Shown here piece by piece: positions 5,059 through 37,256 of a stretch of DNA of 64,000 nucleotides. Origin of the DNA: Hawksworthiomyces lignivorus (lineage: Eukaryota > Ascomycota > Sordariomycetes > Ophiostomatales > Ophiostomataceae). The first letter of the stretch is position 1, and the number at the start of each line of letters is the position of its first letter. Below the pieces are notes generated by a model that worked only from the letters and a program-made list of their open reading frames with translations, made no database searches and had not been told where the DNA came from. The translations under genes and the position numbers were made by a program. Location of the stretch: contig NTMA01000027.1 in assembly GCA_002917075.1 (NCBI GenBank), positions 186,001 through 250,000 of the forward strand, read 5' to 3'.

Positions 5059-5252
5059 CCGAGGAAGAGATTCCCAAAACTAGGGGCTGCAGATTGAGCC
5101 AGTTGCCTACTGTGCTTGCGATAGCGGTGATCTGATTTGTCATCCACTACTGTCATCGACATAAGCTATGCCTTTCATGATCACTAGGGTTTAAGCTTCC
5201 AATGGCCAGTAGTGTCCGGTTATTGACGTTGTGGGGTGTGCGACCGCCTCGG
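5059..5252. promoter_or_regulatory. Two CCTCGG-type hexamers in the SDR/MFS divergent promoter
   Basis: CCGAGG at 5059-5064 and CCTCGG at 5247-5252, about 160 nt upstream of the SDR start and about 195 nt upstream of the MFS start. CCTCGG is the established target of FarA/FarB (Aspergillus) and CTF1-type (Fusarium) C6 regulators. That these copies are bound is inference. Confidence 0.5.
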
Positions 5253-5447
5253 AATGCTAGTGCTATCCGCGGCTCCACAGTACTTCGTGATATCAACAGT
5301 GTAAGAGCGGCCGCGGCAACTCAGTGATTATTTATGTATTTCCTCAGATCCATCCCCAAAGAGCTGCTATGCTGAGCATTTTGAAAATAACGAATTCGTT
5401 TGTGAGTGGTCTTAGAGTGATATCAATTTGACGAAAATTCTTGCAAG

Positions 5448-7055
5448 ATGGGTCTGCTGCCAGAGTTTCGCGGCCGTTTCCTATACCGTTGGATGAGCTT
5501 CATTTGTGGGCTATCATTCATGATGTACGGTGTAAGACCAATCTTGATGCTATTTTGGGGAGTTGGTAAATTCTAACGAATTGCAAAGTACGACTCGGGC
5601 GTGTTGGGTGGAATTCTCCTCCACCCGCCGTTCATAGAAGCGATCGGGTTGGAGAATACCGGTCAATACACAATACCCATGATCGCAAGCTCTTACAGCC
5701 TTGCTGGCACCGTGACCTCGGTGGTAGTAGGGTTCATCTCCTTCAGGCTGGGTCGACGGGGAACTATCCTTATGGGAAATGTGGCCGCCATTTTTGGGAC
5801 AGCCATTCAAGCCTCTGCATACAGTGTCGCGCAGCTCATTGTTGGTCGATGTTGTACAGGGTTTGCCATCGGCTGCATATCTTCAGGCGTCCCAATTTAC
5901 CTTGCTGAAACCGGAATTTCTGCTGGAGATAGAGGCCCAGCACATGCAATCAACGCCATGATGCTAATTGGAGGAGTTCCAGTCGCTTACTGGATAGACT
6001 ATGGATTTACGAAGATGTTCAACCAGGTCTCTTGGAGGATGCCAATCGTGTTCCAAGCTGTCTTTGCCATTGTCGGAGGCGGTTGCATGTATCTCTTGCC
6101 CGACACGCCCCGCTGGTACTATGCTCGCAATCGTTTTGAAGAAGGCGATGCTATACTTGCTCGATTAATTGATGCTCCAACTGCAGATGATCCACGCGTA
6201 CAGCAAATAAAACGAGAAATTCTGCTTTCTATTCAGTCCGAACTCGAAGCTAGTGCCAGTTTGAGCTGGAAGCAGTTCATTACCATGGGCTTTACCGATA
6301 AGACACCTCTTAAAGTTGTTAGGAGGCTGACTATGTGTTTTTGGCTTCCTTTCATTCGAGAGTGGATGGGATCGGGACTGATGGCTACTTATAGTAAGTC
6401 ATCTTCTATGTCTGGGATCAAGTAAGACGCTGACCTTTTCGTAGGTTCTATTATTCTCTCAGAGACTGGAGCGAGCTCGTCCTTGGTTTCTCTTCTTAGC
6501 GGTATACAAAATATTATTTTTGCTTTAGGTTGTGTGCCGCTGTATTTTACGATCGAACGAACCGGCCGACGTGTTACTCTTCTTTGGGGTGCGATTGTAA
6601 TGACCATCTTGTTGGTTATTTTCATCGTACTTGTAGCCATACCACAGCAGCAATCTATCCTCTGGGCATCCATTGCCATCCTTTGGCTATATCTCTTCGC
6701 CATGGGTTACGCCTACCAAGGCATGGTCTGGTTGTACTGTGCCGAAATACCACCACTAGAATACCGCCACATTGGAGGCGCGGCTACATCTACGGGAGAA
6801 TGGCTTGGCACCTTTTTGAACGTTTTCGTTGGACCAATCGGGTTTGATAATTGTGGATGGAGGTACTGGTTTTGGGTGCTCAGCGGTAATCTTACGGCTG
6901 TGGTATTTGTTTACTTTTTGTGCCCTGAAACGGGGGGGAAGACTCTGGAACAGATCGACTATCTGTTTACAAAGACGGGAGGACCAAATGGGACCCAGCT
7001 TGAGGATGCCAAAGAGGAGTGGACTGCAACTGAACAGAATGAGACTGTTGTGTAG
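5448..7055 (+). CDS. MFS transporter, sugar porter family, three exons
   Basis: A proton-coupled uptake carrier of the plasma membrane, predicted at 499 aa, the normal size for the sugar-porter family (12 membrane segments). Exons are 5448-5531, 5589-6393 and 6445-7055. The joins give YG-YDSGVLGG, the conserved first-segment motif, and TYS-SIILSETG. Diagnostic motifs are FRLGRRG after segment 2, VGRCCTGFAIGCISSGVPIYLAE (first residues given) around segment 4, a PDTPRWY motif before the central loop, and the family-end motif PETGGKTLEQIDYLF. It may import the substrate of the neighbouring catabolic genes, but sugar-porter sequences do not reveal substrate. Other members carry quinate, lactose or inositol. 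Confidence 0.92.
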
Positions 7056-7475
7056 TTGGGTCTGAATGAACGAATTGCATCGGAAATTTAGAGGCTGCGC
7101 AGAATATGGCTCTTGGATCACTGAAACTAGACCGACGCATGTACCTCAATGTGCGCTATAGACATTGCTAAGCTCAACATTCTCAGCACCGAATTTTTAA
7201 ATTGAATTAGTGGTAACTGTATGCTTTGATGTCTGGCTGTGCTAGTACAACTTTGATATAATGTACTAACAAATGAATGGGCTACGTATTGCAAAGATTT
7301 TTGTAGAGTTTCATTTCGAGGTCATACTTTGTGAACTAAATGCAAGTAGAGCCTGTTTTAGCTCTAGTCGGTAAACTTCAGCCCTAGTATTGTGTATTCT
7401 AGAATCGACAGCAAAGACCTTATTCCTGTGTATCGGCAGTATCTGCATCTAGTAGAAGTAGTTATCTGGCATAAC
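7056..7475. other. Convergent intergenic region
   Basis: 420 nt between two converging gene ends. I see nothing beyond AT-rich 3' untranslated sequence. Confidence 0.5.
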
Positions 7476-9403
7476 CTAGAGCTTTGGAACCAATCTTTGC
7501 TTCCGATTGTCAGCCTTGGCTCTTTCTTGTGCTCGCAGAACCCTCCTCAAAACTTTCCCACTTGCACTCTTTGGAATAGCTTCTAGGAATTCAATTCCTC
7601 CAGCTAGCCATTTGTGTCTCGACTTCTTGCTCTTGACAAAATCTGTCAGAATTTTCGCAGTTTGGGGATTTGAACTTGTCGTTCCTTTTGGTACAACAAA
7701 TGCTTTCAACACCTCTCCAGCGTAATCGTCGGGTATGCCAATTACTGCAACATCAGCAACGACAGGGTGACCCAGAAGAAGATTTTCAATCTCAGCTGGG
7801 GCCACGGCAACACCTTTGACTTTGACCATTTCTTTCAACCGATCGTGGATCACGAGAAAGCCAGACTGATCCATGAAGCCGATGTCACCAGTGTGCAGAA
7901 ACCCGTCAGCGTCAAACGTCTCAGCTGTCGCTCCAAGTTCGCGGTAATAACCCATGGTGACTTGGGGGCCTTTCGCAAGGACCTCACCACTCTCGCCACA
8001 GCCCAGTATCCTTTCACCTGGACCATCATAATCGGGATCGATGATCTTGATGATTGTCTCGGGAACCGCTTTGCCCACAGTGTGTGCCTTGTCATATGTC
8101 TGATGGGCTGGTGGGCTTAGAGTTAATGCTGAGCAGCTCTCGGTCATACCCCATGCTTGCCTGAGACGAATATGAGGAAATTTGTCTGCTAACTTGTTTA
8201 TAATTTCCTTGGCGAGAGGTGCTGCCCCGGTGTTGAACTGCCGTACAAATTCAAGCTTGTAATTCGTAGCCACGGGATCGTTGACCAGACGAATCAACAG
8301 CGCTATAATTATTAGAAACAAATCTCTGCTAGTTTGAGTGGTGTTGACTTACGCGGCACAAGCCATAGTTCATCGCACTCGTGCTTGACGATGACGTCGA
8401 GCATTTCTTGCATATTGAACTTTCTAATCGAAATGACTTCTTGATTCAAAGCGAGCGGCAATTGTAAAAGTTGGACAATTCCAGTGACTGCTCCGAGTGG
8501 TTAGCTGATGACCTTTACTTCGTAGGCGAAGGTGGACGCACTGTGGTAGAATGGTAGAACAGCTAACAGAGTCTTCGGGCAATCGTTTACGGTCAAAGCA
8601 CGCATTTGCATGAGCTGCGCAATTACGTTATGATGAGAGATCATAACCTAGGTTTTATCAGCAGCCGCTCATGAGATAGACACTGTGAATGGGAGCATGT
8701 TACCCCTTTTGGCAAACTCGTCGTGCCACTAGTAAAGCTCAGATAGGCAGGAATATCTCGGTTACTTTGACCTGGAGACGGAATCCATGCATCGACTTGA
8801 TTAGTTTCGCCTTTTGCCTTGGCTTCTACAATCAAGTCATGCATAGAGATCTTGTCGCTGCCATTATCGGCGCCCGCCTGAGCGCCAACAAAAATGATTC
8901 GATCACTTCCGATGTTCACCTTCTCTGCAGCTCGGCAGGCAAGGCTCCATGACGATGCATCTGCGTATATAAGCTCCGAATCGCTTGTTTGCAGGATGTG
9001 AACCATCTCTTCTACTCCATATTCTGGTGAAGAGGCCGTGACAATTGCGCCTAAGCGGACAGCAGCAAAGATGATGACAGGGTACCAGATGCTGTTTTGA
9101 CAAAAGATTGTTACATGGCTGTTTAGGCCTATGTTAAACCGATTTGCAATCGCAGTTGAGAGATATGTCGCTTCGGCTTTGATGCTGGCAAAGGACAGAA
9201 ATTCTTGTGTTTGAGCGTCTCGAAAACCTCCCTCCTGGCCATTGTTAAAGTTGCAATTTGGAAAAGCTTCGTCGAAAATCCAGTGCCAAATGGAAACGTT
9301 GACAGGAATAACTAACGATATCAATGCATATTAGTTTCAAAGCTATTTCACTGGCAGGGAACGCCAACTTACGATTTGGAAGCTTCTCGCCGTAAGAAAG
9401 CAT
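7476..9403 (-). CDS. Acyl-CoA synthetase / 4-coumarate-CoA ligase-like, peroxisomal (PTS1 PKL), five exons
   Basis: An ATP-dependent acid-CoA ligase of the ANL (AMP-forming) superfamily, predicted at 568 aa. Exons are 9403-9373, 9311-8704, 8647-8542, 8487-8353 and 8302-7476; the four introns are 61, 56, 54 and 50 nt. Joins rebuild conserved text such as LPKG-VMISHHNV and LPFYH-ITGIVQ. Motifs are the phosphate loop SFTSGTTSLPKG (about 202-213), YxxTE-type MTESCS, TGDIGF, the hinge DRLKEMVKVKG, and PKSASGK near residue 537 with the catalytic lysine. The C-terminus VPKL fits a type-1 peroxisomal signal, so the CoA ester is probably made in the peroxisome. It shares a 375-nt promoter with a second PTS1 protein on the other strand. 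The family covers coumarate, fatty and cyclic acids, so the exact acid is unknown. Confidence 0.93.
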
Positions 9404-9575: not shown

Positions 9576-9664
9576 CCGAGGCAGCTCCGCGGTTATCCAC
9601 AGAACTAAGAGTCGGCTATGGAAATAGATACCCCCCAGATACCCCATACCTAGGTAATCTGGGG
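9576..9664. promoter_or_regulatory. Divergent promoter: CCGAGG plus inverted repeat CCCCAGAT/ATCTGGGG
   Basis: CCGAGG lies at 9576-9581. An inverted repeat has arms at 9633-9640 and 9657-9664, with the small palindrome ACCTAGGT in its loop. Both sit between the CoA ligase start (9403) and the reductase start (9779). The hexamer fits a FarA-type site. The inverted repeat is seen in the sequence, and a role as operator is a guess. Confidence 0.45.
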
Positions 9665-9778: not shown

Positions 9779-10851
9779 ATGAGAGCCTACCAACTGCAGC
9801 AGCTGGTCCGAGGCGTCGACGACCTGAAATTAGTCGAGTTGCCAGACCTTCCTCCCCATCCAGACAAATACCTTGTCAAAATCCATGCTGCGGCCATAAA
9901 CTTCTTCGATATTTTACAAGTCCAAGGAAAACACCAACAGAAGCCAGAATTTCCGTGGATTGCAGGAAATGAATTTTCCGGCGAAATTATAGCTGTCCCT
10001 AACAGTACGCGTCCCAAAGGGTGGCGTTTCCAGAAGGGGGATCGCGTTTTTGGGGCTGGGCTCGGGGCTTTTGCGACTATGATTGCTGCGCCCGAAGTAG
10101 CATTGAGACCCATACCGAAAGGATGGTCTTTTGTCGAGGCAAGCAGTCTGTTTTACACGGCACCGACTGCCTACGCAGCCCTCATCTTGCGTGCGCAGGC
10201 AAAAAAAGGTAAGCGAGCAGCATGATTTCATAAACGACGATAGATCACTTACTTTAATATTTCTTAGGCGATTATGTGCTCATTCACGGCGCTGCTGGGG
10301 GTGTTGGTCTTGCAGCAGTGACAATTGCAAGAGCGCTGGGTATGAAAGTTATAGCATCTGTGGACACGGAGAAAAAGCGCGAGATTGTAAGACGCTTCGG
10401 AGCGCACTACGTCGTCGACGCCAAAGGCGACTGGCCTTCTATGGCAAGGCAGTTAACGCCTGAAAATCGTGGCGTCGATGTCGTTCTGGACCCCTTGGGT
10501 GTCATTTCTCCGTCGCTTAAATGTATTCGGTGGGATGGGAGACTCTGTGTCATCGGATTTGCTGCCGGGCGCATCGAAAGCATCCCGACGAACAGACTGT
10601 TACTGAAAAATGTCAGTCTCTCAGGTCTCTTTTGGGGAGAATATGCCAATCAAGACCCGCAAACTGTTGAGGATGTTTGGGACAAGCTATTGGCACTGAT
10701 AGACGAAGGCGGCATTGTGCCTCTCAACTACACGGAGAGGACTTTCAATGGGTTGGAGGAGATTCCAGATGCTATGAAAGCGCTGAGCACAGGCACTGCA
10801 TGGGGTAAAATTGTAGTCAATGTCAGAGGGGGTGATATTAGCAAGCTGTAG
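9779..10851 (+). CDS. Zn-less MDR quinone/enoyl reductase-like, peroxisomal (PTS1 SKL), two exons
   Basis: A medium-chain dehydrogenase/reductase of the NADPH:quinone oxidoreductase/enoyl reductase branch, 337 aa. Exons are 9779-10208 and 10268-10851; the join reads AKK-GDYVLIHGAAGGVG. It contains the AAINFFD and GNEFSG segments of the catalytic domain and the Rossmann loop HGAAGGVG, and it lacks the zinc ligands of true alcohol dehydrogenases. The last three residues are SKL, the canonical type-1 peroxisomal signal. It is divergent from the PKL-ending CoA ligase, so both products should meet in the peroxisome. A likely role is reducing a C=C bond of a CoA ester or an enone made there. Quinone reductase is the alternative, but the location makes it less likely. 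Confidence 0.9.
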
Positions 10852-11139: not shown

Positions 11140-13599
11140 TTATTCCATACTCTGCGACTGGCCATCCGGAAATTCAAAGTTGTCTAAAATGAAGTCATAA
11201 TTATACAGAATTGGCTCAAAATCCGCAGGCTGCTCCTCTATGGATGAAGTAAAGACGTTTTCCAATGCTATATCATCGAAGCGAAAATTCTTGTGGTCCC
11301 GCGTGGGCACATCTTTCGTCGTGTCGTATGTGTTGCGGCCAGGCGCTGGCGCATCACTGTCAGAGACCGGTCGGCCTGCCCCGATCGATGCAGCCATGTG
11401 TGTCTGGGTCATCAGCTGCGAGTCTGGCAGAAACGAGAAGGCTGGCGCACCCACCCCAAGCGTTTTAGACTGTGTAAACGGCTTTGATATGAGGCTGTCT
11501 TGCCAAACACTGGTGTCACCAAAGCTGGGGAGTTCGCTGGTAGCCATCCAGGCGTAGGGAAAGTAGCTAGATGACGCCGATACGAAATACGGCTCGGGTT
11601 TGAGGACTTGTATTGGTAAGGGAAGCCGGCCCTTCTTGACGACAGAGGCGAGAAAGTTGATTGCAGCATCTGCCGTTGCATACATCCCTCCCATTGCGCG
11701 GAGTACCTGCATGCTCTGGTCAAAGCGGAAGATGCTGGCATCACGCACATCGTCGTTCCCAGTGCGGATGTCGACCATGTGCGACAGGCATGCAGCCAGG
11801 AGTGCCGTGATGCCATTCAGTCCAAGAAAACGCACTTGGCCGCGATGCAGCATCGCCTGTGCAATCTTTGTCACCTTGCAGGCAGAGTCTTTGACTTTTA
11901 GTCTCGATGTTGTCCGGATCGACTGGGCTTCTGCAGTATTTGAAAACGGCTGCAGCGCTTGCGTGCGGTGCAAGACGTTTACCAAGGTAAGGTGGGACAA
12001 GCTCAGCATCGCCCAGTGGACTTCGGAGCAGCTCGTCGAGCCCATCTGCTGTGGTACTGGTGGGGGCCTGTAGATATTTGTAGGGACTTGCTTGAGCCAT
12101 TCGTCAATTTCTGCGTCACATTTTTGGAGTTCATGAGGCTGCTGCCCGTTTCGCTTGGGCACAACTATGGTTTTATGCGAAACAGCCGGTATCGTGCTCA
12201 GTGTCGTGTACTGTGTAGAGAGCACATGGCCGATGCAGACGCATAATTTCGCCAACTCGATACACATCAGCGCAGTGCTTTTTTGCTCTTCCACGTTTAA
12301 AATTGCGGATAGCTCGTGGTCGAACTCAGTCAGCGGCTCAATGCGGAAGTCTTCGAGGGTGAGCATGGTAACATCGAAGTCGTCGTCCCGAATACGCATC
12401 GGTCGGCGAGTTCCAAGCGCGAGCATTCTGTCGCGAATGAATAAGCTCCACCACATTCTTCGCCGGCGGCGCTGTACCTGGTCAGAGCCGCATGTTGAAG
12501 TTGGTTCGCGGTGAAGTCCCATGTTCTGCGCGACCAAGAGGGCCTGCGCTGTCCAGTACGATGTGTCCCTCCATTCGTTGTATTTGCTATACCAGGAGCT
12601 CATCAACAGCAGTGATTGAAAAACAGCGGCGCTGTCTGGCTCGACGTCGAATTCGTAGAGAAGCTTGACGCGCGTGAAGAAGACCTCACGGGCTTGCTTG
12701 GCGGTGTCGAAGCCTAACCGGTGAAGCTTGTGTTGTTCCAGCGAGCTCAGTCCGGCGAACATGACCGCCTGGAACAGCAGCAGACTGACGCGGCTGTCCT
12801 TTCGCTCGTTCAAGAGGGCGTCGACGAACGGCCTGAGGTCTATCATTGGCATGAAGGGATACACGCAGAAGATGTAACCCTTCAAGATCTCTATTCGCAA
12901 TTCAGGCTCTGGTATCGTCAGCGCTCCCTTGCGTGCGAGGAATTCCAAGTCGTCGGTAGGGATTTTATTTCGGAAAGGATGAATGAAGGAGGGGAGCTGC
13001 ACCGTTCCGCCGGGACTTGTATGTTGTTGAAGGGTCGTAGACCGTGAGTCCGGAGACACAAACGTCAGAACTTCGAGGGATTCAGATGGTGTATAGTCCG
13101 CTGTGAGACCAGTGTCGGCAGGCTGTTGATCATTTCCGATGTCCTCGTTCTCGCCTTCGAATGTAACATAGACGGGTAGGTCGCCGCCTGGAGCGGACTC
13201 AATTGCTGTTGGTGCGGTCTCAGGGCTGAACTTGTTATCGTGCGCTGCCCCGTCTGCACCCAGGTTGCGTACAGAATCGGAAGGCTGAAGTGAACCCGGC
13301 TCCGGTCCCGCGGTCTGGCTACAGTCAAGCCAGCGTTCGGCTTTGCCTCTTCTAGAGGCTAATAGTACACACTCCCGGTTGTCTAGTCGGCAGTTCGTGC
13401 AGCCGGATTCATTGCGTAAGACATCGCAGCGCACCTTTCTTGTTCTACAGTACTGGCATGCTCGCGATGCGCGGTATCTACGCGCACCCAATGCAGTAGT
13501 GTCATCATTCGAGTTCTTCCGCTTCCGATCTCCTAAAGGTCCAACTGGCGAACGTAGTTCGGCGTCGTCCGTCGACGCGGTAGCAAGCGGAGAATGCAT
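11140..13599 (-). CDS. Zn2Cys6 transcription factor, FarA/CTF1-like
   Basis: A nuclear C6 transcription activator, 819 aa with no intron. The binuclear zinc cluster is at residues 48-77 (Cys 48, 51, 58, 67, 70, 77; spacing 2-6-8-2-6) with CRTRKVRCDV and CTNCRLDNREC, followed by the basic SRRGKAERW. The middle homology region starts near FLARKGALTIPEP and continues with YPFMPMIDLRPF and a WWSLFIRDR segment, as in fungal-specific transcription factor domains. From memory, this zinc-cluster text and the YPFMPMID region most resemble the FarA/FarB and cutinase factor CTF1 group, whose members bind CCTCGG and switch on fatty-acid and cutin use. That site recurs in the promoters around this gene, which makes it the best candidate for local regulator. 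Orthology is inference. Confidence 0.9.
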   Translation of the reverse strand: MHSPLATASTDDAELRSPVGPLGDRKRKNSNDDTTALGARRYRASRACQYCRTRKVRCDVLRNESGCTNCRLDNRECVLLASRRGKAERWLDCSQTAGPEPGSLQPSDSVRNLGADGAAHDNKFSPETAPTAIESAPGGDLPVYVTFEGENEDIGNDQQPADTGLTADYTPSESLEVLTFVSPDSRSTTLQQHTSPGGTVQLPSFIHPFRNKIPTDDLEFLARKGALTIPEPELRIEILKGYIFCVYPFMPMIDLRPFVDALLNERKDSRVSLLLFQAVMFAGLSSLEQHKLHRLGFDTAKQAREVFFTRVKLLYEFDVEPDSAAVFQSLLLMSSWYSKYNEWRDTSYWTAQALLVAQNMGLHREPTSTCGSDQVQRRRRRMWWSLFIRDRMLALGTRRPMRIRDDDFDVTMLTLEDFRIEPLTEFDHELSAILNVEEQKSTALMCIELAKLCVCIGHVLSTQYTTLSTIPAVSHKTIVVPKRNGQQPHELQKCDAEIDEWLKQVPTNIYRPPPVPQQMGSTSCSEVHWAMLSLSHLTLVNVLHRTQALQPFSNTAEAQSIRTTSRLKVKDSACKVTKIAQAMLHRGQVRFLGLNGITALLAACLSHMVDIRTGNDDVRDASIFRFDQSMQVLRAMGGMYATADAAINFLASVVKKGRLPLPIQVLKPEPYFVSASSSYFPYAWMATSELPSFGDTSVWQDSLISKPFTQSKTLGVGAPAFSFLPDSQLMTQTHMAASIGAGRPVSDSDAPAPGRNTYDTTKDVPTRDHKNFRFDDIALENVFTSSIEEQPADFEPILYNYDFILDNFEFPDGQSQSME

Positions 13600-14724
13600 C
13601 GTGGAGCAGCCGATGACTATATCTGCAAGTTGACGCCAGAATGGATACGTGGAGAGAGGGAGCTTGCACGAGTGATTTCGCTCAGATTCATTTGTTTGGA
13701 GAACTACGAGATGCGCTTCTGTTTAGGAAAACGCTACACGGAAAGGCGCTGGCCATGCCGGGAATTCCGAAGTATGGGGTAAATGCGGAGTCGAAGGCGG
13801 GGATCAGAGCATGGGTGTTAGTCTTTTCTCGTGTAGAGCTCTACATAAGTCTAAGTCTCCTTTGGGATCGCCTACGCAAGAGTTCTTAGGTCAATTGGTC
13901 TGAACATCATCAGTCTAACGTCAATTCATATTTTCCCAAGCGCACAAGATGTGGCGCTGCCTGGGGTGCCTCCCCCAGGCCAAGGGTATATCAACATCCC
14001 CTGCTCCGTCCGTGTCCTGTGAGCGACGCAAGCTAGCGTGCGGGGAATTCAACCAGTGGTCAGAGAACGACCCTATTCACCTTTGGCATAGGTGTTTTGG
14101 CATGGGAAATCCCCTCACCCGTTGTAGCACTATTATTTCATTGGGCCAGTCTCGGGTAATGTTAAGGACCAAACGATGCTTTTTAACTAGCGGGTTTCCT
14201 AGCTCTCCTTCATGATCGAAAATTAATTGGCCCCGTGCTCGTTGATTTGCTACCCTTTGCCGGGTAATGCATCCTTAGCTTCGCAATCTTATCGAGCTTT
14301 CCTCGGCGTTCGTTTTTCATCTTCCTCGGACGGCTATTGCTCCCTTTCTTAGGTAATCCTCAATCAACATTGGTCTGCTCTTCCTCGGGCATGGCGAACA
14401 TCCTCCCCCATGGCCCATGGTTGGTGCAAGTGTACTATAGCTTGTACAATGCATTTTGCAAACATTTTGATACGAAGGCGCGTCCCGATACCGTGGCAAA
14501 CGGCGGAGCTTCGCTGGGCGAAGCGGGACCGCTTGTGTTGCTCTAATACCTGGTTGTAGACGGCTAGCAGCAGTTAAAAGTTGGTCGCGTTTTGGATACC
14601 TCTCGTAATTTAATCTTACAACCTATTCGCTCGTGCCCAAAAATCAAATACACTGCAGTAGCGGTGGTGACTTCATTTTTTTTTAAATTTGTGTGACGAC
14701 TTATCTTTACCATCCACCGCAATC
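13600..14724. other. 1.1-kb divergent intergenic region with hairpins
   Basis: This region separates the FarA-like regulator from the AtuA-like gene. It holds three CCTCGG hexamers (listed separately). It also holds a perfect hairpin of GCCTGGGG (13959-13966) with CCCCAGGC (13973-13980), and a second of GCTTCGC (14508-14514) with GCGAAGC (14518-14524), the latter nested inside a GTCCCG/CGGGAC pair. I see no supported gene. Confidence 0.55.
14301..14388 (+). promoter_or_regulatory. Cluster of three CCTCGG hexamers upstream of the AtuA-like gene
   Basis: CCTCGG occurs at 14301-14306, 14324-14329 and 14383-14388, all on the same strand within 88 nt and 340-420 nt upstream of the AtuA-like start. 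Three copies in 88 nt is far above the roughly one per 3 kb expected at this base composition. This is the densest candidate FarA/CTF1-type element in the window along with the ALDH/cyclase promoter. Confidence 0.6.
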
Positions 14725-18847: not shown

Positions 18848-20006
18848 TTTGGAGATCTGTAAATATCGCAACAGACTAGACAAGAGTCCTCTGAAATGTT
18901 CAATAAGTGAAATATCTTTATCTTGATGTACAGCAGACAATATCCAACATGAACGAGCCGACAACTAAAGCTTTTATTAAAAACCGAACATTCCTCACAC
19001 TCCTTGGCCACAATGCCTCCTCGCCTCCACGACCTTGCCGAACATCCGCTATAATCGCGAATTACGAGCGAGCCCGATAATGACGATTCTGAATTAGATT
19101 CTAGATGATCTAGAAGGCTTCTACGAAGCTTTTGTTAGCGCATCTCGCGACGTCACAGTGAACGGTCCGCCCGAACCCGATGCATAAGGACCCGTAAATC
19201 TGCTTAGATCCTCGGCATTTGGGTACTGCAATAGCGAACCGTAGTTAAGAGCAAAATTGCATGATGAGCACATTGTAATTCCTTGCGCTCTCAGAGGTCA
19301 GGCAATATAATTACCTCAGCTTGTGCAAAGAGATTTCAGTGGCTGCAACCCAGCAGTTATCGCTGGTCTGAGTGGCAACATTATTAGTGGGTCTGTGCTT
19401 GGAGCTCGGCACGCTGGATGGGCCCCCACGTAGATAAAACGCCACATCATGGAACTCGCCCCTTTTAGCTTCTAAGTGCCGAGAGTGCTTGCAGATGCGG
19501 CTTAGAGCTCTGATAACCTCCTTTTCTTCATGGTCCTCGATATACTCGCGATGCCCTCACATTGGATCAAAAATATTGCTGCGAATTTATCGAATACTTC
19601 TGCACCAGAACACTTCGTTACACTCAGCTACTGCTAGTAATACCGAGATTTCTGCATTTTGAATTCCCAATATTCCGTTTGAAAAGCAATTGTGTAAAGT
19701 GACGCCTGGATGACACAGGGAGGGGTTTCTTTTTTTTTTTTGGTTCTCATTTATTCTTTGTTTTTTTTTTAAATAAAAAAACGTAGAATTCCGCTGAGTT
19801 GGTTGTAACTTGCTGAAGTTACTAAATTCGCAGAAGAAAACCTCGAATAATAACACCTTTTAAGATCAATTCTCAATTGCAAACAAGAATTTAAAATTCT
19901 ATCAATAAACAGATTCTCAATTACATAGCATTTTATCCCTCTAACAAAACGTATTCTCCCTACAACAAAAATATAATGCAAAAATCTAGCCCTATTACAT
20001 ATACAT
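18848..20006. other. Intergenic region with one CCTCGG and poly-T tracts
   Basis: About 1.16 kb upstream of the 3HCDH-propeller gene and downstream of the b5-reductase gene. It has T-rich tracts at 19730-19770. A short reading at 19013 onward starts like a gene but is stopped quickly, and I do not annotate it. Confidence 0.5.
19210..19215 (+). promoter_or_regulatory. CCTCGG hexamer upstream of the 3HCDH-propeller gene
   Basis: A single copy of the FarA/CTF1-type hexamer, about 360 nt upstream of the start at 18847. Confidence 0.35.
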
Positions 20007-22300: not shown

Positions 22301-22397
22301 CCTGCGAATTTCCGGGATAGAAATACAGCGATGTTTAACTATGAGTTAGATAACAACTAAACATCAAGACAGATACTGGCTTATCACTCTAGGCGTC

Positions 22398-27384: not shown

Positions 27385-28317
27385 GATATCGGGACTGCTA
27401 GCCGGGCAGTCGGCTTTGACATTAGTAACTGAATAACTCGTTGATATAAACCCTCAGCATGTTTGCATTGACGCAGATCGGCTAGAGGTGAGGGGAACTA
27501 ATCTCGTGGTGCGTATGTGATACTTGTATTAGTGGGTGACGTCGCTTGTGGGTCGGCAAAGGCCAAGATAAGGATGGATACTGCCGTCATCCAATGGAAT
27601 ATGCGTAGAGATAAGGGTGATCCATCACCACTGTCGACAAGCTTTAGCATCCTACGTGTAAGGTGATTCTAGAAGACCCTATTCCAGATGTGAGGACTTT
27701 GGAGCGAGAGTTGAGTTAGCGGTACAATTAGTTCCCAGTTATACGCTGTTGTGTTGGTGAGAACGGCTATTGGGCTTGAGGTTAACGCGCTGTCCGGGGG
27801 TTGATTAAAATGGGGCAGACATTTCGACGTGCAAGACACAGAAAGCGAGTAACGATTGGGTTTCCTTTTTAGGCGCTGGCAACCATGTAAGAGTAACTCA
27901 ACAAGATATAGTATATTGTGAATTCTGCTATGATAATTTGTGATATTATCTCCTATTTATTATATTCATAATGGCACTTCTTGTCACAAACAATTGGCCT
28001 GCAACAACTAGCTGTCTCTTATATACTACTCACCCTATATTCGTATTTTAGCAGTCTTTACTTTTAGGTGGTAACTCTGTGATCAAATAGATAACAGCCG
28101 TCACCGTACCTGAAAAATGAATTAACGTAGGCTCAAATTTTTAACTAGTTCTCTCAGATTTCGCGCACCGTCTGGTGGCTAAGCTAAGTCCTTGGCGAAT
28201 CTTGTTTACATGCAAGCAACATCGCCAGCTTCCTGGCCCACATGGAAATTTTGAGACATCCTGTGCCACTTTCCTCTATTCTTTCCTATGCTGATCGATT
28301 ATGCCACTGTGTTTATG
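27385..28317. other. Intergenic region
   Basis: 933 nt upstream of the second C6 factor and downstream of the DUF885 gene. I see no gene and no CCTCGG hexamer. Confidence 0.5.
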
Positions 28318-30036
28318 CTAGAAATCGTAAAATTTCCACTTTGATACAAAATCCGGCGATAGCTCATCGCCGAGGATCAGGGCCTTAACCATCTCTATGG
28401 GCATCATGTTAGTGTGCAAAATGGTGTCGTGGAATTCCTTTTCTGAGAGCCGACAGGTATCGACGACCATCTCGCGCAGCTTCCAAAGCTGCAGGGCGCC
28501 GAGCATGTAGGCAGCCTGGTAGAGTGGTGAGTAGGAGCCCTCAACGGAACGGCGGACCTCACCTTCGGCGTTGCTGCGCTCGTGGTGGATCTTGTCAACT
28601 AGCAAGTCAACGGCCTCCTGGGCGGTCATCTCACCGAGGTGGAACTTCAGCGAGAAGACGATACGTAGACAGCGGTGCATGCGCCAGAAGAGAGCGCCGA
28701 TTCGGTTCTGCGGCGAGTGATGGAAGTCGTCCCGTGTATACAGCACAAACTCCCAGTAGAGCGCCCAGCCTTCGACGTAGAAGGGCGTGTCAAATAGCTC
28801 CTTGCGATGGCTGTTGTGGCGGTCTGCCATATACAGCTGCAGACGGTGGCCTGGGAACATCTCGTGGAAGGCTGTAGCGCGCGCATAGTGCTTGTTGTTG
28901 CCGCGCATCACCATGAGCTTCAGCTCCTGGTCCATCGCCGCCGTCGGATACGACACCTGGATCCTTGGCCCACCTAGGAAAAACGGCGACACCTTCTGCT
29001 TCTCTGCCTCGATCATCGTCATGCGCCACGTCGCCCGCGCCAGCGCCGGGACCGTCACCAGGTCGCGTTCGGTAACATAATCCGCGCCTTCGTCAACCAG
29101 GTGCTTGACATACTCTGACTGCCGACCTGGCTCTACGTAGTCGTTCTTGACCAGCTCGAGAGCCGATTTCCAGTCCGTTCCATAGCCAAGCGCCTCCGAT
29201 TGTCTGATCATCTCGCTCTCGCACCATTGGAATTGGCGGTCGGCAATCTCCAGCAACTCCTCCGGCGTATATGGGATCATCTCCGCCTCCAACTCAACTA
29301 GCAGCCCCGCGCGGCCGATCGGCTCGCCGACAATAGCGTCGCCATGGCCCTCCTCCAGATTCATGCCGGCCAAGTCGCGCTGGACCACGCCAAGATACTC
29401 GCTCAATGCTGTGTACGTGCTCTCCAAGATGGCCGCCACCCAGTAGTCGTACAGCGGATCGTACGTCGCATAAAAGGCAGACCACTCCCGAAGATTCTCT
29501 AGGAGGCCCGTAATGGCTTTCGCGGTTAGGTACCCTGTCGTCGTCGTCACCTTGAAGTCGCCACTCTCAACCTTGCTACGGACTTGTGCTATGGTCTTGC
29601 TGGCGCTGCTGAGCTTGCTAGCAGCCGCCTTTGCGTCTAGCGGCTTCACATCCTGGCGCGCCTCCAGCAGGGCGACTAGTACATCAGCGAATGGCAACAA
29701 CGGCGCTAGCTTCTGGTACGACTGTCTCTGCAGCTTCAGCTGGTTCAACTGTCGCGTGTGGAAAGTTTTGAGCAAAATATAATCAACTCGACCCTCTTGG
29801 TCTAGAGACACGAAGTCTACGCCGGTCAGCGTCGCCTGCTCGGCTCGGTGGTACCTCTCCAGAGCCTCGTAGCGGCGTGGCGCAATGTCGATGCTGTAGA
29901 AATTGTTCAGCTCGCGGAGATCCGCCTCCGTGCGCCGCACTTGATCGGCCATGAGCGTGCTCGCTGCCCGGTCTGCCGCTGGCGCACGTGGCGTCCTCGG
30001 CTCAGCTCGGCGCCATGCAAGGGTTGACCGTGTCAT
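28318..30036 (-). CDS. DUF885 family protein (putative metallopeptidase-like)
   Basis: An intronless 572-aa protein of the DUF885 family. Fungal and bacterial members are uncharacterised but carry a gluzincin-like HExxPGH motif, here FHEMFPGH near residue 390, followed by RLQLYM. Other typical parts are LSQEGRVDY-like LDQEGRVDYILLK near residue 80, the long helical middle, EGWALYWEF near 430, and ILHTNMMPIEMVKALIL close to the end. The ATG at 30036 is used. No upstream ATG is in frame, and the reading further upstream opens with a TTG only. No signal peptide is visible, so it is probably intracellular. It is divergent from an OPT-type peptide transporter across 755 nt, which suits a role in using imported peptides or peptide-like compounds. 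Confidence 0.85.
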   Translation of the reverse strand: MTRSTLAWRRAEPRTPRAPAADRAASTLMADQVRRTEADLRELNNFYSIDIAPRRYEALERYHRAEQATLTGVDFVSLDQEGRVDYILLKTFHTRQLNQLKLQRQSYQKLAPLLPFADVLVALLEARQDVKPLDAKAAASKLSSASKTIAQVRSKVESGDFKVTTTTGYLTAKAITGLLENLREWSAFYATYDPLYDYWVAAILESTYTALSEYLGVVQRDLAGMNLEEGHGDAIVGEPIGRAGLLVELEAEMIPYTPEELLEIADRQFQWCESEMIRQSEALGYGTDWKSALELVKNDYVEPGRQSEYVKHLVDEGADYVTERDLVTVPALARATWRMTMIEAEKQKVSPFFLGGPRIQVSYPTAAMDQELKLMVMRGNNKHYARATAFHEMFPGHRLQLYMADRHNSHRKELFDTPFYVEGWALYWEFVLYTRDDFHHSPQNRIGALFWRMHRCLRIVFSLKFHLGEMTAQEAVDLLVDKIHHERSNAEGEVRRSVEGSYSPLYQAAYMLGALQLWKLREMVVDTCRLSEKEFHDTILHTNMMPIEMVKALILGDELSPDFVSKWKFYDF

Positions 30037-30791: not shown

Positions 30792-33236
30792 ATGTCTCGC
30801 CTCGGAATACAATTCGTCACCGCAAAACTTCTCGAAATGAAGAACCCATTGTCTCACATGGATGCCGTGCAGGGCGCTCCGGCGGCGCTCACTGGCGCCA
30901 CAGAACACTCTGCTTCGCCAACCGAAAAAGGCCCAACCAAAGATTACGTCGCCGAGGTAGCCACTATACCGCTTGACCTTCGTGCTTCCGAGTCCCTCGA
31001 CGATGACGAGGAGGACTCTCCTTACGATGAAGTCCGTGCAGCCGTGCGTAACACAGACGGCGGAGAGATGGCCAACACGCTGCGGGCCTGGATTTTAGGA
31101 ACCCTTTTCGTCACCGTTGCCTCGTCGCTCAACATGTTCCTGAGTATGAGGTGGGCGTTCATCTCCCCTAGGGCTGATCTTGCAGCCATAGATATTACTA
31201 ACTTCTTCCACAGGAGCCCTGCAATCAATTTCCCGGCGCTAGTGGTCCAGCTGCTGGTGTATCCGCTCGGCTGCCTCTGGGCCGAGACGATGCCGACGCG
31301 CGTCTTCCAGACGTTTGGCATCCGCTGGTCGTTTAACCCCGGCCCTTTTACCATCAAGGAGCACGCAGTCGTCACGCTCATGGCCAACGTCTCCATTGGT
31401 TACGCCTACAGCACAGATGCTCTGCTTGCACTGCAGGGCAAGCCATTCTATAACATCAACCTCGGCTGGGGCTTCTCGTTGCTATTCACGCTCAGCTCGC
31501 AGTTGATTGGCATCGCCTTGGCTGGTCTGTTCCGCCGCTTCCTCGTCTGGCCAGCTGCCATGATCTGGCCCGGTCAGTTTTCTAATACCTCGCTGTTCTA
31601 TGCGCTCCACGACAAGAGTAAGAGCGACGGCGTCCACTCTAACGGCTGGCGCATCAGCCGCTACCGCTGGTTCGTTGTCGTTGTCGCTGCGATGTTCTGC
31701 TACTACTGGATTCCCGCCGTCCTGTGGCAGGGCCTCTCCGTATTCGCCTTTGTGACATGGATCCGCCCCAACAATGTCGTTCTCAACCAGCTGTTCGGCG
31801 GCTTCACCGGCCTGTCACTGTTGCCCATTACCTTCGACTGGACTTACGTCACCGCCTATCTCGGTGATCCTATCCTTGCGCCCACCATCTCTCATGTAAA
31901 TACGCTTATCGGCCTCTTTGTCTTCTTCATCCTCACTTCCATCGGCATGCTCTACACCGGCGCCCTCTACTCCGAGTACCTACCCCCTGTCACTTCGCAG
32001 ACCTATGACAACACGCAGAACTATTACAACGTTAGTCGGATCCTTGGCGACAAGTTCACCTTTGACCTGCAAAAGTACGAATCTTATTCGCCGCTCTTTC
32101 TGGCACCCACACTCGCCCTGAACTACGGCCTCTCCTTTGCCGCCCTGACCGCCACCCTCGTCCACACTGGCCTCTACCACGGCAAAGAGATCTGGTACCG
32201 CTTCCGCACTGCCCGCAACCAGAAGCCTGACATCCACCTCAAACTCATGAACAAGTACAAAGAAGCTCCCGACTGGTGGTATGTCCTGCTCTTTCTCGCC
32301 TCTATGGCCCTAGGCTTCGGCACCATCCGGGGCTTCGATTCGCAGCTGCCATGGTGGGGTTTTATTGTCGCCGTCCTGCTCGCCGTCGTCTTCATGATCC
32401 CCACTATCATGATTCTCGCTGTCTTCAACATCCTCATCAGTCTCAACGTAATCTCGCCCTTCCTTGCCGGCTTCATGATTCCTGGCCGCCCCATCGGCGT
32501 CATGGTCTTCAAAGTCTACAGCACCATCATCCTCGGCCAGGCCCAGACATTCTGTGGCGACCTTAAATTGGCACACTACATGAAAGTGCCCCCGCGCGTG
32601 ACCTTTTTCTGCCAAGTCGCCGCCACCATCTGGGCCGTCTTCGTCCAGATCGCCACTATGAATTGGACCCTGGGCACCATCGACAATGTCTGCAACAATC
32701 TTCAGAAGAACCACTTTACATGCCCCAATGGCCGCGCCTTCTTCTCTTCCAGCATCGTCTGGGGCGTCATCGGGCCCCGCCGCATGTTCGGTGACGGCAG
32801 TACTTACGCCGCCTTCAATTGGTTCTGGCTCGTCGGCGCCGCTCTGCCAGTCCTCTTATATGTCGCCACCAAGGTGCTCAAGATCCGCTTCTTCCGCCAC
32901 TTCAGCGCCCCCATCATGCTTGGCGCCATGGGCTGGCTGCCTCCTGCCACTCCGCTGAGCTTTTCCACCTGGGCCATCTTCGGCTTCATCTTCAACCACT
33001 GGATCCGCAGAAAGTGGCACGGTTGGTGGTCCACCTACGCCTACACGACTGCAGCCGCTCTGGATGCAGGCCTGGTCCTCAGCACCATCATCGTCTTCTT
33101 CGCCATCACCTTCCCCAACGTCACTATTCCGCAATGGTGGGGCAACGTCAACGTCTTCGAAACGCTGGATGCCACTTCCAGCGCCGTTCTAAAGACGGTG
33201 GCCGATGGCCAGACGTTTGGTCCAAAGCAGTGGTAG
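30792..33236 (+). CDS. OPT family oligopeptide transporter, two exons
   Basis: A proton-coupled importer of small peptides or peptide-like compounds (glutathione, siderophore relatives) in the plasma membrane. The gene reads as one open frame of 814 aa, but positions 31151-31213 are best taken as a 63-nt intron (GTGGGC...CCACAG) with no stop codon. Removing it restores the conserved family text LNMFLSMR-SPAINFPALVVQ and gives 793 aa. The acidic N-terminal tail includes SLDDDEEDSPYDEVRAAV, typical for the family, and there are about 14-16 hydrophobic segments. Other landmarks are GFDWTYV-like FDWTYVTAYLGDP and NYGLSFAALTA. ATGs at 30838 and 30858 are alternative starts. The substrate is unknown. 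Confidence 0.93.
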   Translation: MSRLGIQFVTAKLLEMKNPLSHMDAVQGAPAALTGATEHSASPTEKGPTKDYVAEVATIPLDLRASESLDDDEEDSPYDEVRAAVRNTDGGEMANTLRAWILGTLFVTVASSLNMFLSMRWAFISPRADLAAIDITNFFHRSPAINFPALVVQLLVYPLGCLWAETMPTRVFQTFGIRWSFNPGPFTIKEHAVVTLMANVSIGYAYSTDALLALQGKPFYNINLGWGFSLLFTLSSQLIGIALAGLFRRFLVWPAAMIWPGQFSNTSLFYALHDKSKSDGVHSNGWRISRYRWFVVVVAAMFCYYWIPAVLWQGLSVFAFVTWIRPNNVVLNQLFGGFTGLSLLPITFDWTYVTAYLGDPILAPTISHVNTLIGLFVFFILTSIGMLYTGALYSEYLPPVTSQTYDNTQNYYNVSRILGDKFTFDLQKYESYSPLFLAPTLALNYGLSFAALTATLVHTGLYHGKEIWYRFRTARNQKPDIHLKLMNKYKEAPDWWYVLLFLASMALGFGTIRGFDSQLPWWGFIVAVLLAVVFMIPTIMILAVFNILISLNVISPFLAGFMIPGRPIGVMVFKVYSTIILGQAQTFCGDLKLAHYMKVPPRVTFFCQVAATIWAVFVQIATMNWTLGTIDNVCNNLQKNHFTCPNGRAFFSSSIVWGVIGPRRMFGDGSTYAAFNWFWLVGAALPVLLYVATKVLKIRFFRHFSAPIMLGAMGWLPPATPLSFSTWAIFGFIFNHWIRRKWHGWWSTYAYTTAAALDAGLVLSTIIVFFAITFPNVTIPQWWGNVNVFETLDATSSAVLKTVADGQTFGPKQW

Positions 33237-34008
33237 TAATGAGCTTGCTGGTAATATCTAACGATTTCCGTAAGCAAAGCGTTTTAAGGTGTCGTGGGAT
33301 TCTCATAATGAAAATAAACAACAGAGATAGATTCTTTGCTTCCAATTTATTGACGTGAAAACAACTGCATATCTAATTCAGTTCTTATTCCCCATCTCTC
33401 ATCATCTAGTCAAATATCTAGAATGGGACTCTAAAATCGACTGTTTTACGAATGAATTTCGTTCTAGATCTTCTCAAATCCATATCAGTTCTTGAAATAA
33501 GTTTAGCGTCAGGAATTAGCTAATTAACTAAATTGTCTGCAAGGTAATGTCTCAAGCAGGTGGTGAGACCGCTGAGAAGCAAATCCTGGTTATCATGGGT
33601 TCGATATTGAAAAAATCCAGAAAATCAGCAGTTGCTACAACATATTCTGTTACCAAGCTGTCATTGTATTAGTAAAGGCCAGAAATTTTGTTATCAATGC
33701 GAGCCCACGAGAAGCTTCTGGCCCGGCATGTTCCTCGGAATTCGGGGTGTAATTCTGGGTGCAGCAATGCAGCCCGCGGTTATGCTAGACACTTCTATGA
33801 TTAGCGCTTAATATAGGCGTCACACTTCACTACGAACCGAATTACGTGCGCCTTTCCAAAAAGAGTTCCTCAAGATTCGACAACAGCAAGCCTTATGTTC
33901 TTAGAGCTTCATTTAAGACCTAATTCCGCCGTTACACACTGTTAGCCACAAAAATACTTTGAGAAGCATACATTTCTACTTCACTTCATTTTAAAAACTT
34001 TTGACAAT
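33237..34008. other. Intergenic region upstream of the ADH gene
   Basis: 772 nt. It contains one CCTCGG (listed separately). Nothing else is recognised. Confidence 0.5.
33733..33738 (+). promoter_or_regulatory. CCTCGG hexamer upstream of the alcohol dehydrogenase
   Basis: A single FarA/CTF1-type hexamer about 275 nt upstream of the ADH start codon. Confidence 0.4.
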
Positions 34009-35115
34009 ATGGACGCTCCCCCTAAGACTATGAAAGCCGGCCAATGGGATCCCAAACAAGGGAAAGTTGTCATCAACACCATTCCTGTCCCTGTGCCCGG
34101 CCCAAACGAAATGCTTGTTAAGATCACATCTGCATCTCTGTGCCATACCGACGTCATCTCCATTGAGAGGCCGGATATAGAGGAGCCCTTCACACTGGGC
34201 CACGAAGGTGTTGGTATTATTGACAGCATTCATTCCTCCGCAGAAGGAAAGGGCTGGAAGGTTGGGGACGCAATCGGATTTTTGTACATTCTGGGATGTT
34301 GCTTTGAATGCGAAGGATGTCAGGTTCACAACCTTCTCTGCTTAAATGGCAAGCCTGAGCTATCTGGGTTTACCAAACCTGGATTCTTTGCCGAATATGC
34401 CATTGTCGATCATCGAAATTGCATTCATTTGCCAAAGCATTGGAGCCTGCAGACTAGTTCCGTCTTTTTCTGCGCTGGCATGACCGGTAAACGACCCTCT
34501 GTTTGGGCTGAGTTGCATATTTGTGATACATATAATATGCTAACAGATTTATCAGCATTCAACGCCGTCGATTCGTGTGCACTGTCACCTGGGCAGTGGT
34601 TGGCGGTAATTGGTGCCGGTGGCTTAGGGCAGATCGCTACTCAATACGCCAAGGCAATGGGTTTAAACGTCGTTGCTATCGATATCAACGACAAAACACT
34701 CGAAGTTTGCAAAGGACAAGGAGCCGACGCCATATTCAATTCAAAGACTGATCCGGAATATGTATCTAAAATCAAAGCTTTGACCGGAATAGGAGTCCAT
34801 GCTGCTGCGGTCTTCAGCAATGCTAAGGTTGCATACGACAATGCCCCTAAAATCATCCGACCAGGCGGGCTATTGATGGCAATTGGCTTGCCCTACGAGC
34901 CATTGGAGATTCCGGCTATGGACTTGGCGCTTGGGAAGTATAGAATTAAGAGTGAAGCTCCTGGGATTCCCCAGCGCCTGAAGAAAGCCGTAGATTTTTC
35001 GGCTAAGCACAACATTGTTCCGGAAGTTGAATTTAGGAAGCTAGATGACCTTGACGACATGGTGAAGGAGATGCGGGCAGGGACAGCGACTAAGAGACGG
35101 GCAGTTGTATTTTAA
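34009..35115 (+). CDS. Zinc alcohol dehydrogenase, two exons
   Basis: A zinc- and NAD(P)-dependent alcohol dehydrogenase of the MDR family, 348 aa after removing a 60-nt in-frame intron (34487-34546; donor GTAAAC, acceptor TAACAG). The unspliced frame has no stop, but the spliced join CAGMT-DLSAFNAVDS follows the family pattern. Catalytic zinc ligands are Cys in SLCHTD and His in GHEGVG, with a further Cys in the CAGMT segment. The structural zinc loop is CCFECEGCQVHNLLC, and the NAD loop is GAGGLG. It is most like the yeast-type Adh1/secondary alcohol group. It sits next to an aldehyde dehydrogenase on the other strand (convergent), so the two could oxidise an alcohol to an acid, possibly the product of the nearby P450. 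Confidence 0.92.
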   Translation: MDAPPKTMKAGQWDPKQGKVVINTIPVPVPGPNEMLVKITSASLCHTDVISIERPDIEEPFTLGHEGVGIIDSIHSSAEGKGWKVGDAIGFLYILGCCFECEGCQVHNLLCLNGKPELSGFTKPGFFAEYAIVDHRNCIHLPKHWSLQTSSVFFCAGMTGKRPSVWAELHICDTYNMLTDLSAFNAVDSCALSPGQWLAVIGAGGLGQIATQYAKAMGLNVVAIDINDKTLEVCKGQGADAIFNSKTDPEYVSKIKALTGIGVHAAAVFSNAKVAYDNAPKIIRPGGLLMAIGLPYEPLEIPAMDLALGKYRIKSEAPGIPQRLKKAVDFSAKHNIVPEVEFRKLDDLDDMVKEMRAGTATKRRAVVF

Positions 35116-35337
35116 TCTCGAGGGGCGGGATGGAGTGCATTCACTGTGTCTAGTTCCATATTTTTGCAGAGTCAGATAAAACCATTTATACAAATAAAAG
35201 CACTCAACTTTCCACCACATGTGTGCTCTTGTCTATCACTGCACACATTATTCTATATCTTAAATTTAATTTTTAAAAATTTAAAAAAGATATCTCCATT
35301 ATTTCATACTATGGCCGTTATATTAATAGAATAATCC

Positions 35338-36908
35338 TTAGTCTGTCAAATTAATCATGATTGTCTTTGGTTCAGTGAACGCAACTAAGGCCCCCTTCCC
35401 ACACTCACGCCCCAGACCACTTTGTTTACTGCCACCAAACGGAGTTGTCAAAAACGACAAGCTAACGCAATTGATTCCTACCATGCCCGATTCGAGTGCA
35501 CTAGCCACACGCAGGGCCCTGTTGATATCCTGCGTGAAAACACCTGCCATTAAACCGTATTCTGTACTATTAGCTTGTTCAATAACCTCTTCTTCGGTCT
35601 TAAATTTGTTGAGAATAGCAACAGGCCCAAAGATCTCCTGCTGAAATATTTCTTTATCTGAAGCAACTCCTTCAAATACGGTGGGCTGCACGTAAAATCC
35701 TTTGTCTCCCACGCGCTGTCCGCCAGTAAGAAGATTTCCCTGCAATAAACCTCGCTCGATAAACCCAGTTACCCTCTGGAACTGTGCCTGGTCGACCAAC
35801 GGGCCCATTAAAGTATCGGGTTTCTCTGGATCGCCAATGAATTTCGCGCGCTCTTCCAGAGCGTCCTTGTACCTTTTAACGAATTCTTCGTAAATGCCAT
35901 CTTGGACGTATACCCGCGTAGCTGCAAAGCAAACCTGTCCACTGTTGGTAGCAAGAGCATTAACTGCCCACGATATCGCGTTCTCTAGGTTACAATCATC
36001 AAAAAATACGGCTGGAGACTTTCCACCTAGCTCCAGAGTGACGCGCTTTAGATTTGACTTCGCTGCCATTTCTTGAATCTTTTTGCCCGTAGCGATTGAG
36101 CCCGTAAAGCTGACCTTGCGAACACGCATATGACTGGCGATCAAGGCACCGGTGGTGCCATCTCCGGACAGAATTTGAAAGACGCCAGGGGGAAACCCTG
36201 CAGCCTGGATTAAGGGGCCCAAGGCGAGCGCAGCAAATGGTGTCTTCTCGGACGGTTTTAAAATGAAGCAATTCCCAGTAGCCAGTGCTGGAGCAGCTTT
36301 GAGTCCCGAAGTACCGAGCGGTCCATTCCAAGGTACAATTCCGGCTGTTACACCTAGGGGCTCGTTGCGTGTGATTTGCATAAAACCGCCATCTTGAGGC
36401 ACTGCTTCTCCCACGAATTTATCAATCCATCCCGCGTTGTATCTGAAGGACTGAAAATTCGCATATGTAATTAGTATGGAACCATTATCTTTTCAAAAAG
36501 GTAGCAGCAGCGACTTACTTCGGCCGCCAAGCCAATCTCAAATTTTCCGAAGGTGGCATACGGAGCACCAAGTGTAATTCTGCTCAGTTCAGAGAGAGCA
36601 CCCGCATGCTCTTCGATCAACGCAGCAAATCTGAACATGATATCCCTTCGCTCATTTGCGGCCAATTCCCTCCATTGTGGGAAAGCCCTTTCTGCCGCTT
36701 CAACTGCAGCATCGACATCCTCCTGTCCTGCTAGGGGAATATCATCTGCCACGAGCGAGCCGTCTTTGGGATTGCAAACAGATAACTTCGCAACACTTTT
36801 CGCATCAACATAATTGTTATCGATAAACAGCTTGTTTGGCAAGTTGTTAGCAGAGAAATTGAACGGCAAGGCCGTGCCGCTCAAATTAAGATTTTTCAAA
36901 TCGGCCAT
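35338..36908 (-). CDS. Aldehyde dehydrogenase, two exons
   Basis: An NAD(P)-dependent aldehyde dehydrogenase of 500 aa, the standard family length. Exons are 36908-36519 and 36450-35338, split by a 68-nt intron (36518-36451); the join EIGLAAE-SFRYNAGWIDK is canonical. Motifs are IVPWNGPLG, the general base Glu in LELGGKSP, the catalytic Cys in NSGQVCFAATR, EIFGPVAIL, and FGGSKQSGLGRE near the end. There is no targeting signal, so it is likely cytosolic. It should oxidise an aldehyde, perhaps from the neighbouring ADH, to the acid that the CoA ligase activates. It is divergent from the cyclase-type hydrolase with three CCTCGG-type sites between them. Confidence 0.94.
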
Positions 36909-37137
36909 GACAGTATTGCAATCGCTGTTGACACCAACTCCAACACAAGATAAAGTGTGAAGATATTTGTGTTGTTAAAGATAGTAAAGGACACCGGGGT
37001 TTCTCGTATCTCTAAGTTGTTTTAGATATCTTCAGCCCGACTCCCTTCCCCGGGCCAACGGCCCTTGACTCTAGAGCATCGCAATTCAGTACACCAAAAA
37101 TCTTGAAAAAGTTCGAGCAATAGAAATATGAGAAGAT

Positions 37138-37256
37138 CCGAGGAGGCTTTCCGGATATCAGCGACCTGACGCCCCACATCGGCCCCCCCGAGGAAATTCA
37201 GAGGTCCGCGGCAACGCTCCCCCGCACCGCGCTTTAGTTCGCCTTCCATTCCTCGG
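37138..37256. promoter_or_regulatory. Three CCTCGG-type hexamers in the ALDH/cyclase promoter
   Basis: CCGAGG at 37138-37143 and 37188-37193, and CCTCGG at 37251-37256, within 119 nt of a 513-nt divergent promoter. Two face one way and one the other. Together with the AtuA promoter this is the strongest cluster of the motif. Confidence 0.6.

Follow-up and report, generated by a model that had tools for sequence, protein, structure and literature searches.

Why does the hexamer CCTCGG recur between the genes of a cluster of about 33 kb in Hawksworthiomyces lignivorus, and does the transcription factor encoded in the middle of that cluster act through it? The cluster lies in a stretch of 64,000 nucleotides (hereafter the window; bases 186001-250000 of contig C112, which is 440 kb long, in a genome of 43.7 Mb and 191 contigs), and combines genes for oxidative enzymes and transporters with a gene for a Zn(II)2Cys6 regulator (11140-13599, minus strand). 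According to PMC4117967 and PMC5068947, CCTCGG is the site of FarA, FarB and CTF1-alpha. The enrichment of this motif in the cluster promoters is real and not a product of chance, and the regulator appears from its sequence to be a Far-family paralogue in the wide sense; how the two may be connected is weighed below.

CCTCGG in the promoters of the cluster

The original prediction counted, by eye, about 13 copies of CCTCGG or CCGAGG in seven named intergenic regions, where about two would be expected from composition. Both figures agree with the computed ones: the regions contain exactly 13 copies in 5,401 bp, with every per-region count correct, and the expectation is 1.6 under an order-1 model. 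In the shuffled control that the prediction had called for, none of 2,000 dinucleotide shuffles reached 13 (mean 1.61, maximum 8), and CCTCGG ranked second of the 2,080 hexamers in these regions, behind AAAAAA. Because all seven regions had been chosen holding sites, the count was redone, blind to the motif, on the complete set of eight intergenic regions that flank the start of an assigned gene between 4902 and 37421 (6,222 bp). This set holds 14 sites, the extra one at 30800, at a density of 2.25 per kb and with all eight regions occupied; no shuffle out of 2,000 reached 14 (mean 2.00, maximum 10), and CCTCGG was the first-ranked of the 2,080 hexamers. With 14 copies it also led the 60 hexamers that share its composition; the next had 7 and is itself an overlapping shift of CCTCGG, and the other 59 averaged 1.95.

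The placement of the sites follows the starts of genes. Six convergent intergenic regions, 1,814 bp together, contained no site, and the distance from each promoter site to the nearer start codon was 58-424 bp, the start codons being taken from open reading frames (ORFs) and four of them inspected in the sequence. The base before CCTCGG was T in 9 of 14 sites and G in 5 of 14, and T never followed; the background preceding bases were G, C, T and A in 20, 16, 15 and 8 cases, and no extended motif is claimed. Inverted repeats of CCTCGG with an arbitrary 8-base gap occur at 7 places genome-wide and are uninformative.

CCTCGG is not a rare word. Together with its complement it has 24,742 copies in the 43.7 Mb (0.566 per kb), compared with 21,084 for a reversed control word, and the window as a whole, with 37 copies in 64 kb (0.58 per kb), matches the genome average. 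An average total is compatible with enriched promoters because coding DNA contains many copies and the excess is confined to promoters, and what counts is therefore the placement of sites and not their total. With intergenic DNA defined by ORF masks, ORF-free DNA had 0.20-0.21 sites per kb in 100 kb of random DNA from the same genome, compared with 0.80-1.27 in the window at 4.0-38.5 kb. An automatic promoter rule at three settings (600 bp, 33 ORFs; 1,000 bp, 33 ORFs; 800 bp, 42 ORFs) found 2 sites in 16.5 kb, 11 in 24.4 kb and 6 in 23.4 kb, respectively, among the promoters of the 100 kb of random DNA, and 10 in 8.5 kb, 14 in 9.9 kb and 13 in 10.0 kb at 4.05-38.5 kb of the window (Fisher p = 0.0006, 0.006 and 0.0006). 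The same rules gave no site at 38.5-64 kb, in 5.0, 6.3 and 5.9 kb, and a site was present in 5 of 29 random promoters. The statement that the other intergenic DNA, about 14 kb, has about two copies was roughly right: the ORF-free DNA of 38.5-64 kb contained 2-3 sites, in 6.4-13.2 kb depending on the ORF cut-off.

An AtuA-family gene belongs to the cluster, but the genome has 16 further AtuA loci. The 1.2 kb upstream of these 16 contained 4 sites in 19.2 kb, no region having more than one and several of them beginning inside the domain and including coding DNA; the difference from the cluster gave a Fisher p of 3e-6. Random promoters and AtuA upstream regions thus span 0.12-0.45 sites per kb, against 2.25 in the cluster promoters, and since both controls are low, the excess belongs to this cluster and not to promoters or to AtuA genes generally. 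With 4 sites across the 16 regions, AtuA promoters in general were rejected as Far targets. No description of CCTCGG enrichment in such a cluster was found among the papers listed in the literature searched, subscription papers lying mostly outside that search.

Identity and relatives of the resident regulator

The protein encoded at 11140-13599 matches PF00172 (Zn_clus) and PF04082 (Fungal_trans), both above cut-off, and thereby shares the Zn(II)2Cys6 plus Fungal_trans architecture of FarA and CTF1-alpha, together with CCTCGG as candidate site. The prediction of a C6 factor with a FarA/CTF1-like zinc cluster was borne out by a Far-type zinc cluster that is identical at 30 of 50 residues to a Eurotiales Ctf1B and at 23 of 50 to a FarA/CTF1-alpha, these two being identical to each other at 25 of 50. 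The RKVRCD...CTNC core is retained. Among the matches listed (the best 120 of 261 homologues), the nearest named relatives are of the FarB/CTF1-beta group or named Ctf1B, at 36-42% identity; no solved structure was found by sequence for the regulator.

Trees of 76, 40 and 21 proteins, the first two of them quick trees with some long branches, placed the regulator with proteins of Sporothrix, Capronia, Exophiala, Phialophora and several Dothideomycetes, in a strongly supported clade separate from Ctf1B and from FarA/CTF1-alpha. It lies on the Ctf1B side of the tree, the references being proteins named Ctf1B or CTF1 beta, and outside the clade that the Eurotiales Ctf1B proteins form on their own; one protein named CTF1 beta (P0072) falls inside the regulator's clade. 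The CTF1-alpha clade (10 proteins; Shimodaira-Hasegawa-like approximate likelihood ratio test, SH-aLRT, 100, in a quick tree with long branches) holds instead a protein encoded on contig C133 of the same genome. This FarA/CTF1-alpha orthologue is 75% identical to a Sporothrix bragantina protein and about 70% identical to Colletotrichum proteins, and the second half of its zinc cluster looks intact. A position outside the FarA/CTF1 clade, together with a lack of co-expression, had been named beforehand as a finding that would speak against the prediction: the regulator does lie outside that clade in the strict sense, but taken widely the Far family still includes it. On this sequence evidence it is a Far-family paralogue and not the FarA/CTF1-alpha orthologue. 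Since its zinc cluster is of the Far type and FarA, FarB and CTF1-alpha reportedly use CCTCGG, binding of CCTCGG by the regulator is plausible.

Extra Far-family paralogues are also known in Aspergillus as FarC and FarD, of which FarD works with FarA on hydroxycinnamic acids (PMC10512302). Both differ from the factor described here, which has a zinc cluster, in being without one according to PMC5068947 and PMC10512302. In the genome of H. lignivorus, a further contig (C169:22914-30820; L005 and L008) carries two Far-type regulators side by side, one with a Fusarium-like zinc cluster and one diverged.

A candidate local regulon and its alternatives

We consider it probable, at roughly 60%, that the CCTCGG words are promoter elements of a local regulon, in which the resident Far/CTF1-type regulator would bind them and co-activate the surrounding catabolic genes. 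This reading is adopted because all 13 sites were confirmed, the motif ranks first in the motif-blind set and is absent from convergent regions, the sites are close to starts, and the regulator belongs to the Far family. The genes of the cluster would then probably be switched on together, in response to an inducer that is probably a hydrophobic acid or the CoA ester of one, with the resident regulator binding CCTCGG in their promoters and the neighbours being co-expressed.

The enzyme set suggests terminal oxidation of a hydrophobic compound, followed by CoA activation and beta-oxidation-like steps. Judging from the genes present, uptake could be followed by oxidation through the cytochrome P450 with the b5 reductase and by conversion of an alcohol through an aldehyde to an acid, after which CoA activation and beta-oxidation-like steps would take place partly in the peroxisome. 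The peroxisomal part is proposed because the two genes on either side of the promoter that holds the site at 9576 encode proteins ending in SKL, the classical signal for the peroxisome, and in PKL, which is a variant of it.

Pathway-specific C6 regulators within catabolic clusters, such as the activator of the quinate cluster, are encoded beside their pathway genes and have their sites in the cluster promoters. The arrangement in the window differs from these in that its regulator and site belong to the Far family, which as a rule forms a global system for fatty acids. The position of the sites, mostly within about 450 bp of a start, is like that of many Far targets in A. flavus (PMC5068947, Table 1). 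The targets of FarA and CTF1-alpha, however, are scattered through the genome, whereas the candidate targets in the window adjoin the gene of a regulator that falls outside their clade. Far factors are global switches of fatty-acid use, and the resident paralogue, if the local regulon is true, would show such a global circuit made cluster-specific; it would be predicted that, on the right substrate, deletion of one gene shuts off about a dozen of its neighbours.

Several observations weigh against this reading. The site at 30800-30805 (plus strand) lies in a promoter, 58 bp before the start, only if the OPT transporter gene begins at its third in-frame ATG (30858); if the ATG at 30792 is used the site is coding and the tally becomes 13 sites in seven of eight regions, so that the choice of start decides one region of the eight. 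The gap at 26673-28317, a possible promoter of an unassigned minus-strand gene, has no site in 1,645 bp. ORF-free DNA around other transcription-factor or pattern loci reached 0.27-0.57 sites per kb, four of these loci having been picked for holding CCTCGG, and the weakest of the promoter comparisons gave a p of only 0.006. As a positive control, four thiolase upstream regions had one site each in only two of the four (2 sites in 3.2 kb); the isocitrate lyase and PEX11 loci had single upstream sites, with strand assigned by reading. Lastly, the regulator's zinc cluster matches that of FarA at only 23 of 50 residues, and the genome encodes, besides the FarA/CTF1-alpha protein on C133, several other Far-type zinc-cluster proteins, any of which would be able to use the sites.

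The last two points also bear on an alternative that we regard as possible but doubtful, namely that the main user of the sites is the genome-wide FarA/CTF1-alpha or another Far paralogue, the resident factor having drifted or serving as a modulator only. An orthologue is present whose zinc cluster looks intact in its second half, CCTCGG is the reported site of FarA/CTF1-alpha (PMC4117967 and PMC5068947), and the 27 of 50 residues at which the resident zinc cluster differs from FarA would be consistent with such drift. The cluster density, with up to three sites per promoter, nevertheless exceeds that of the thiolase upstream regions, the resident factor keeps its zinc-cluster core, and a dedicated regulator within the cluster is the simpler reading. 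The two need not act separately, as FarA may perhaps co-act with the resident paralogue on a partly peroxisomal, CoA-dependent catabolic cluster.

Use of CCTCGG by a different, unrelated regulator is compatible with the sequence, and zinc-cluster proteins often read words that contain CGG, but the sole resident factor with a clear zinc cluster in the 33 kb is of the Far type, and we judge this improbable. The least credible explanation is that the excess arose in this stretch by chance or from its composition and has no role in regulation. It might be invoked since the word is common genome-wide, was picked after the sequence had been seen and is only moderately significant in some background comparisons, but against it stand the first rank among hexamers, the occupancy of all eight promoters, the shuffles, the empty convergent regions and a word equal to the site named in advance by the regulator's own family.

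Genes, ancestry and related neighbourhoods

The promoter placement of the sites was correctly anticipated, but their description as standing in front of oxidative genes is too narrow, since they also face sugar-type MFS, OPT and cyclase-like genes. At the left end, sites at 5059 (reverse) and 5247 (forward; 5059-5252 together) lie between a short-chain dehydrogenase (4068-4901, minus; PF00106/PF13561) and an MFS sugar-type transporter with several exons (5449-7055, plus; PF00083, start inspected). A single minus-strand site (9576-9581) occupies the common promoter of an acyl-CoA synthetase of the 4-coumarate-CoA ligase/luciferase group with a PKL C-terminus (7476-9403, minus; PF00501/PF13193, PDB relatives, start inspected) and an MDR-type quinone oxidoreductase/enoyl reductase-like protein with an SKL C-terminus (9779-10851, plus; PF08240/PF00107, PDB relatives). 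The regulator, assigned from its two domains, homologues and trees, has its upstream region in common with the AtuA-family gene, which has two exons and encodes an AtuA ferredoxin-like domain (14725-16725, plus; PF07287, PF23544). The three direct-orientation, plus-strand sites there (14301, 14324 and 14383; 14301-14388) are closer to AtuA, at 342-424 bp, than to the regulator, at 702-784 bp.

Further along, one plus-strand site (19210-19215) stands 363 bp before a 3-hydroxyacyl-CoA dehydrogenase gene (3HCDH; 16929-18847, minus; PF02737/PF00725), whose product has a C-terminal stretch resembling LDL-receptor propellers; many of the ascomycete matches listed are equally long. A cytochrome b5 - cytochrome b5 reductase protein (20007-21486, minus; PF00173, PF00970, PF00175) and a cytochrome P450 (22399-24169, plus; PF00067, start inspected) have sites at 21840 (reverse) and 22101 (forward; 21840-22106) between them. 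The DUF885 protein (28318-30036, minus; PF05960) and the OPT oligopeptide-type transporter (30858-33236, plus, start uncertain; PF03169) are doubtful members of the candidate regulon. A plus-strand site at 33733-33738 lies 276 bp before a zinc alcohol dehydrogenase (34009-35115, plus; PF08240/PF00107, PDB relatives), and three sites (37138 and 37188 in reverse, 37251 in forward orientation; 37138-37256) separate a two-exon aldehyde dehydrogenase (35338-36908, minus; PF00171, PDB relatives) from a cyclase-like protein whose 3' end is not settled (37422-38460, plus; PF04199, start inspected). Midway along the cluster, the stretch 24635-28317 holds open frames without Pfam match (24638-25237; 26013-26672, minus) and no CCTCGG, and may represent a decayed or multi-exon gene. 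The acyl-CoA oxidase family PF14749 had no match in this genome, and no solved structure was found by sequence for the AtuA protein.

A terpenoid substrate is a guess, by analogy, from the AtuA name and the probable fungal order. Grosmannia clavigera has a terpene-responsive 30-gene cluster, as reported in PMC3680317, and the likeness is that both fungi, probably members of one order, have a large cluster of catabolic genes, with the AtuA-terpene link made by family name only. The local regulon, if true, would point to the substrate of an AtuA-containing catabolic cluster.

The regulator and the Sporothrix proteins nest among proteins of black yeasts (Capronia, Exophiala, Phialophora; sampling from the best 120 homologues). 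The entries concerned are P0001, P0003, P0008, P0009 and P0048, P0001 being a close entry without a name. A tree holding together the clade members other than those of Sporothrix and the window was rejected by the approximately unbiased (AU) test (p = 0.00075, 21 proteins), the tested group having been named after a tree was seen. This nesting makes lateral transfer of the regulator possible, and an old paralogy with losses also fits it. In the only other cluster gene searched for ancestry, 3HCDH, the named relatives (best 120 of 1,311) are mostly from Aspergillus, Penicillium, Trichoderma and Colletotrichum, a result that lends no support to a transfer of the cluster as a block. We therefore offer only as an unlikely scenario that Ophiostomatales acquired the paralogue laterally from a black-yeast-like donor, that it became the dedicated regulator of a physical, peroxisomal catabolic cluster and spread the ancestral CCTCGG to every cluster promoter, and that other Far/AtuA neighbourhoods in the genome would repeat this arrangement.

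Such neighbourhoods were seen on contigs C112, C154, C182 and C136, where CTF1-type or related zinc-cluster matches lie within about 16 kb of AtuA at 4 of 17 AtuA places, against 0.26 pairs expected (P = 1.6e-4), with approximate positions and a distance chosen after looking. In Diplogelasinospora grovesii, one protein model (P0164) spans a b5-b5 reductase followed by the same dehydrogenase, corresponding to 16929-21486 of the window, which suggests that the b5-b5 reductase and 3HCDH genes adjoin in the same order in that fungus. On contig C142 of the H. lignivorus genome (182171-187011), an AtuA gene and a thiolase gene are about 2.5 kb apart.

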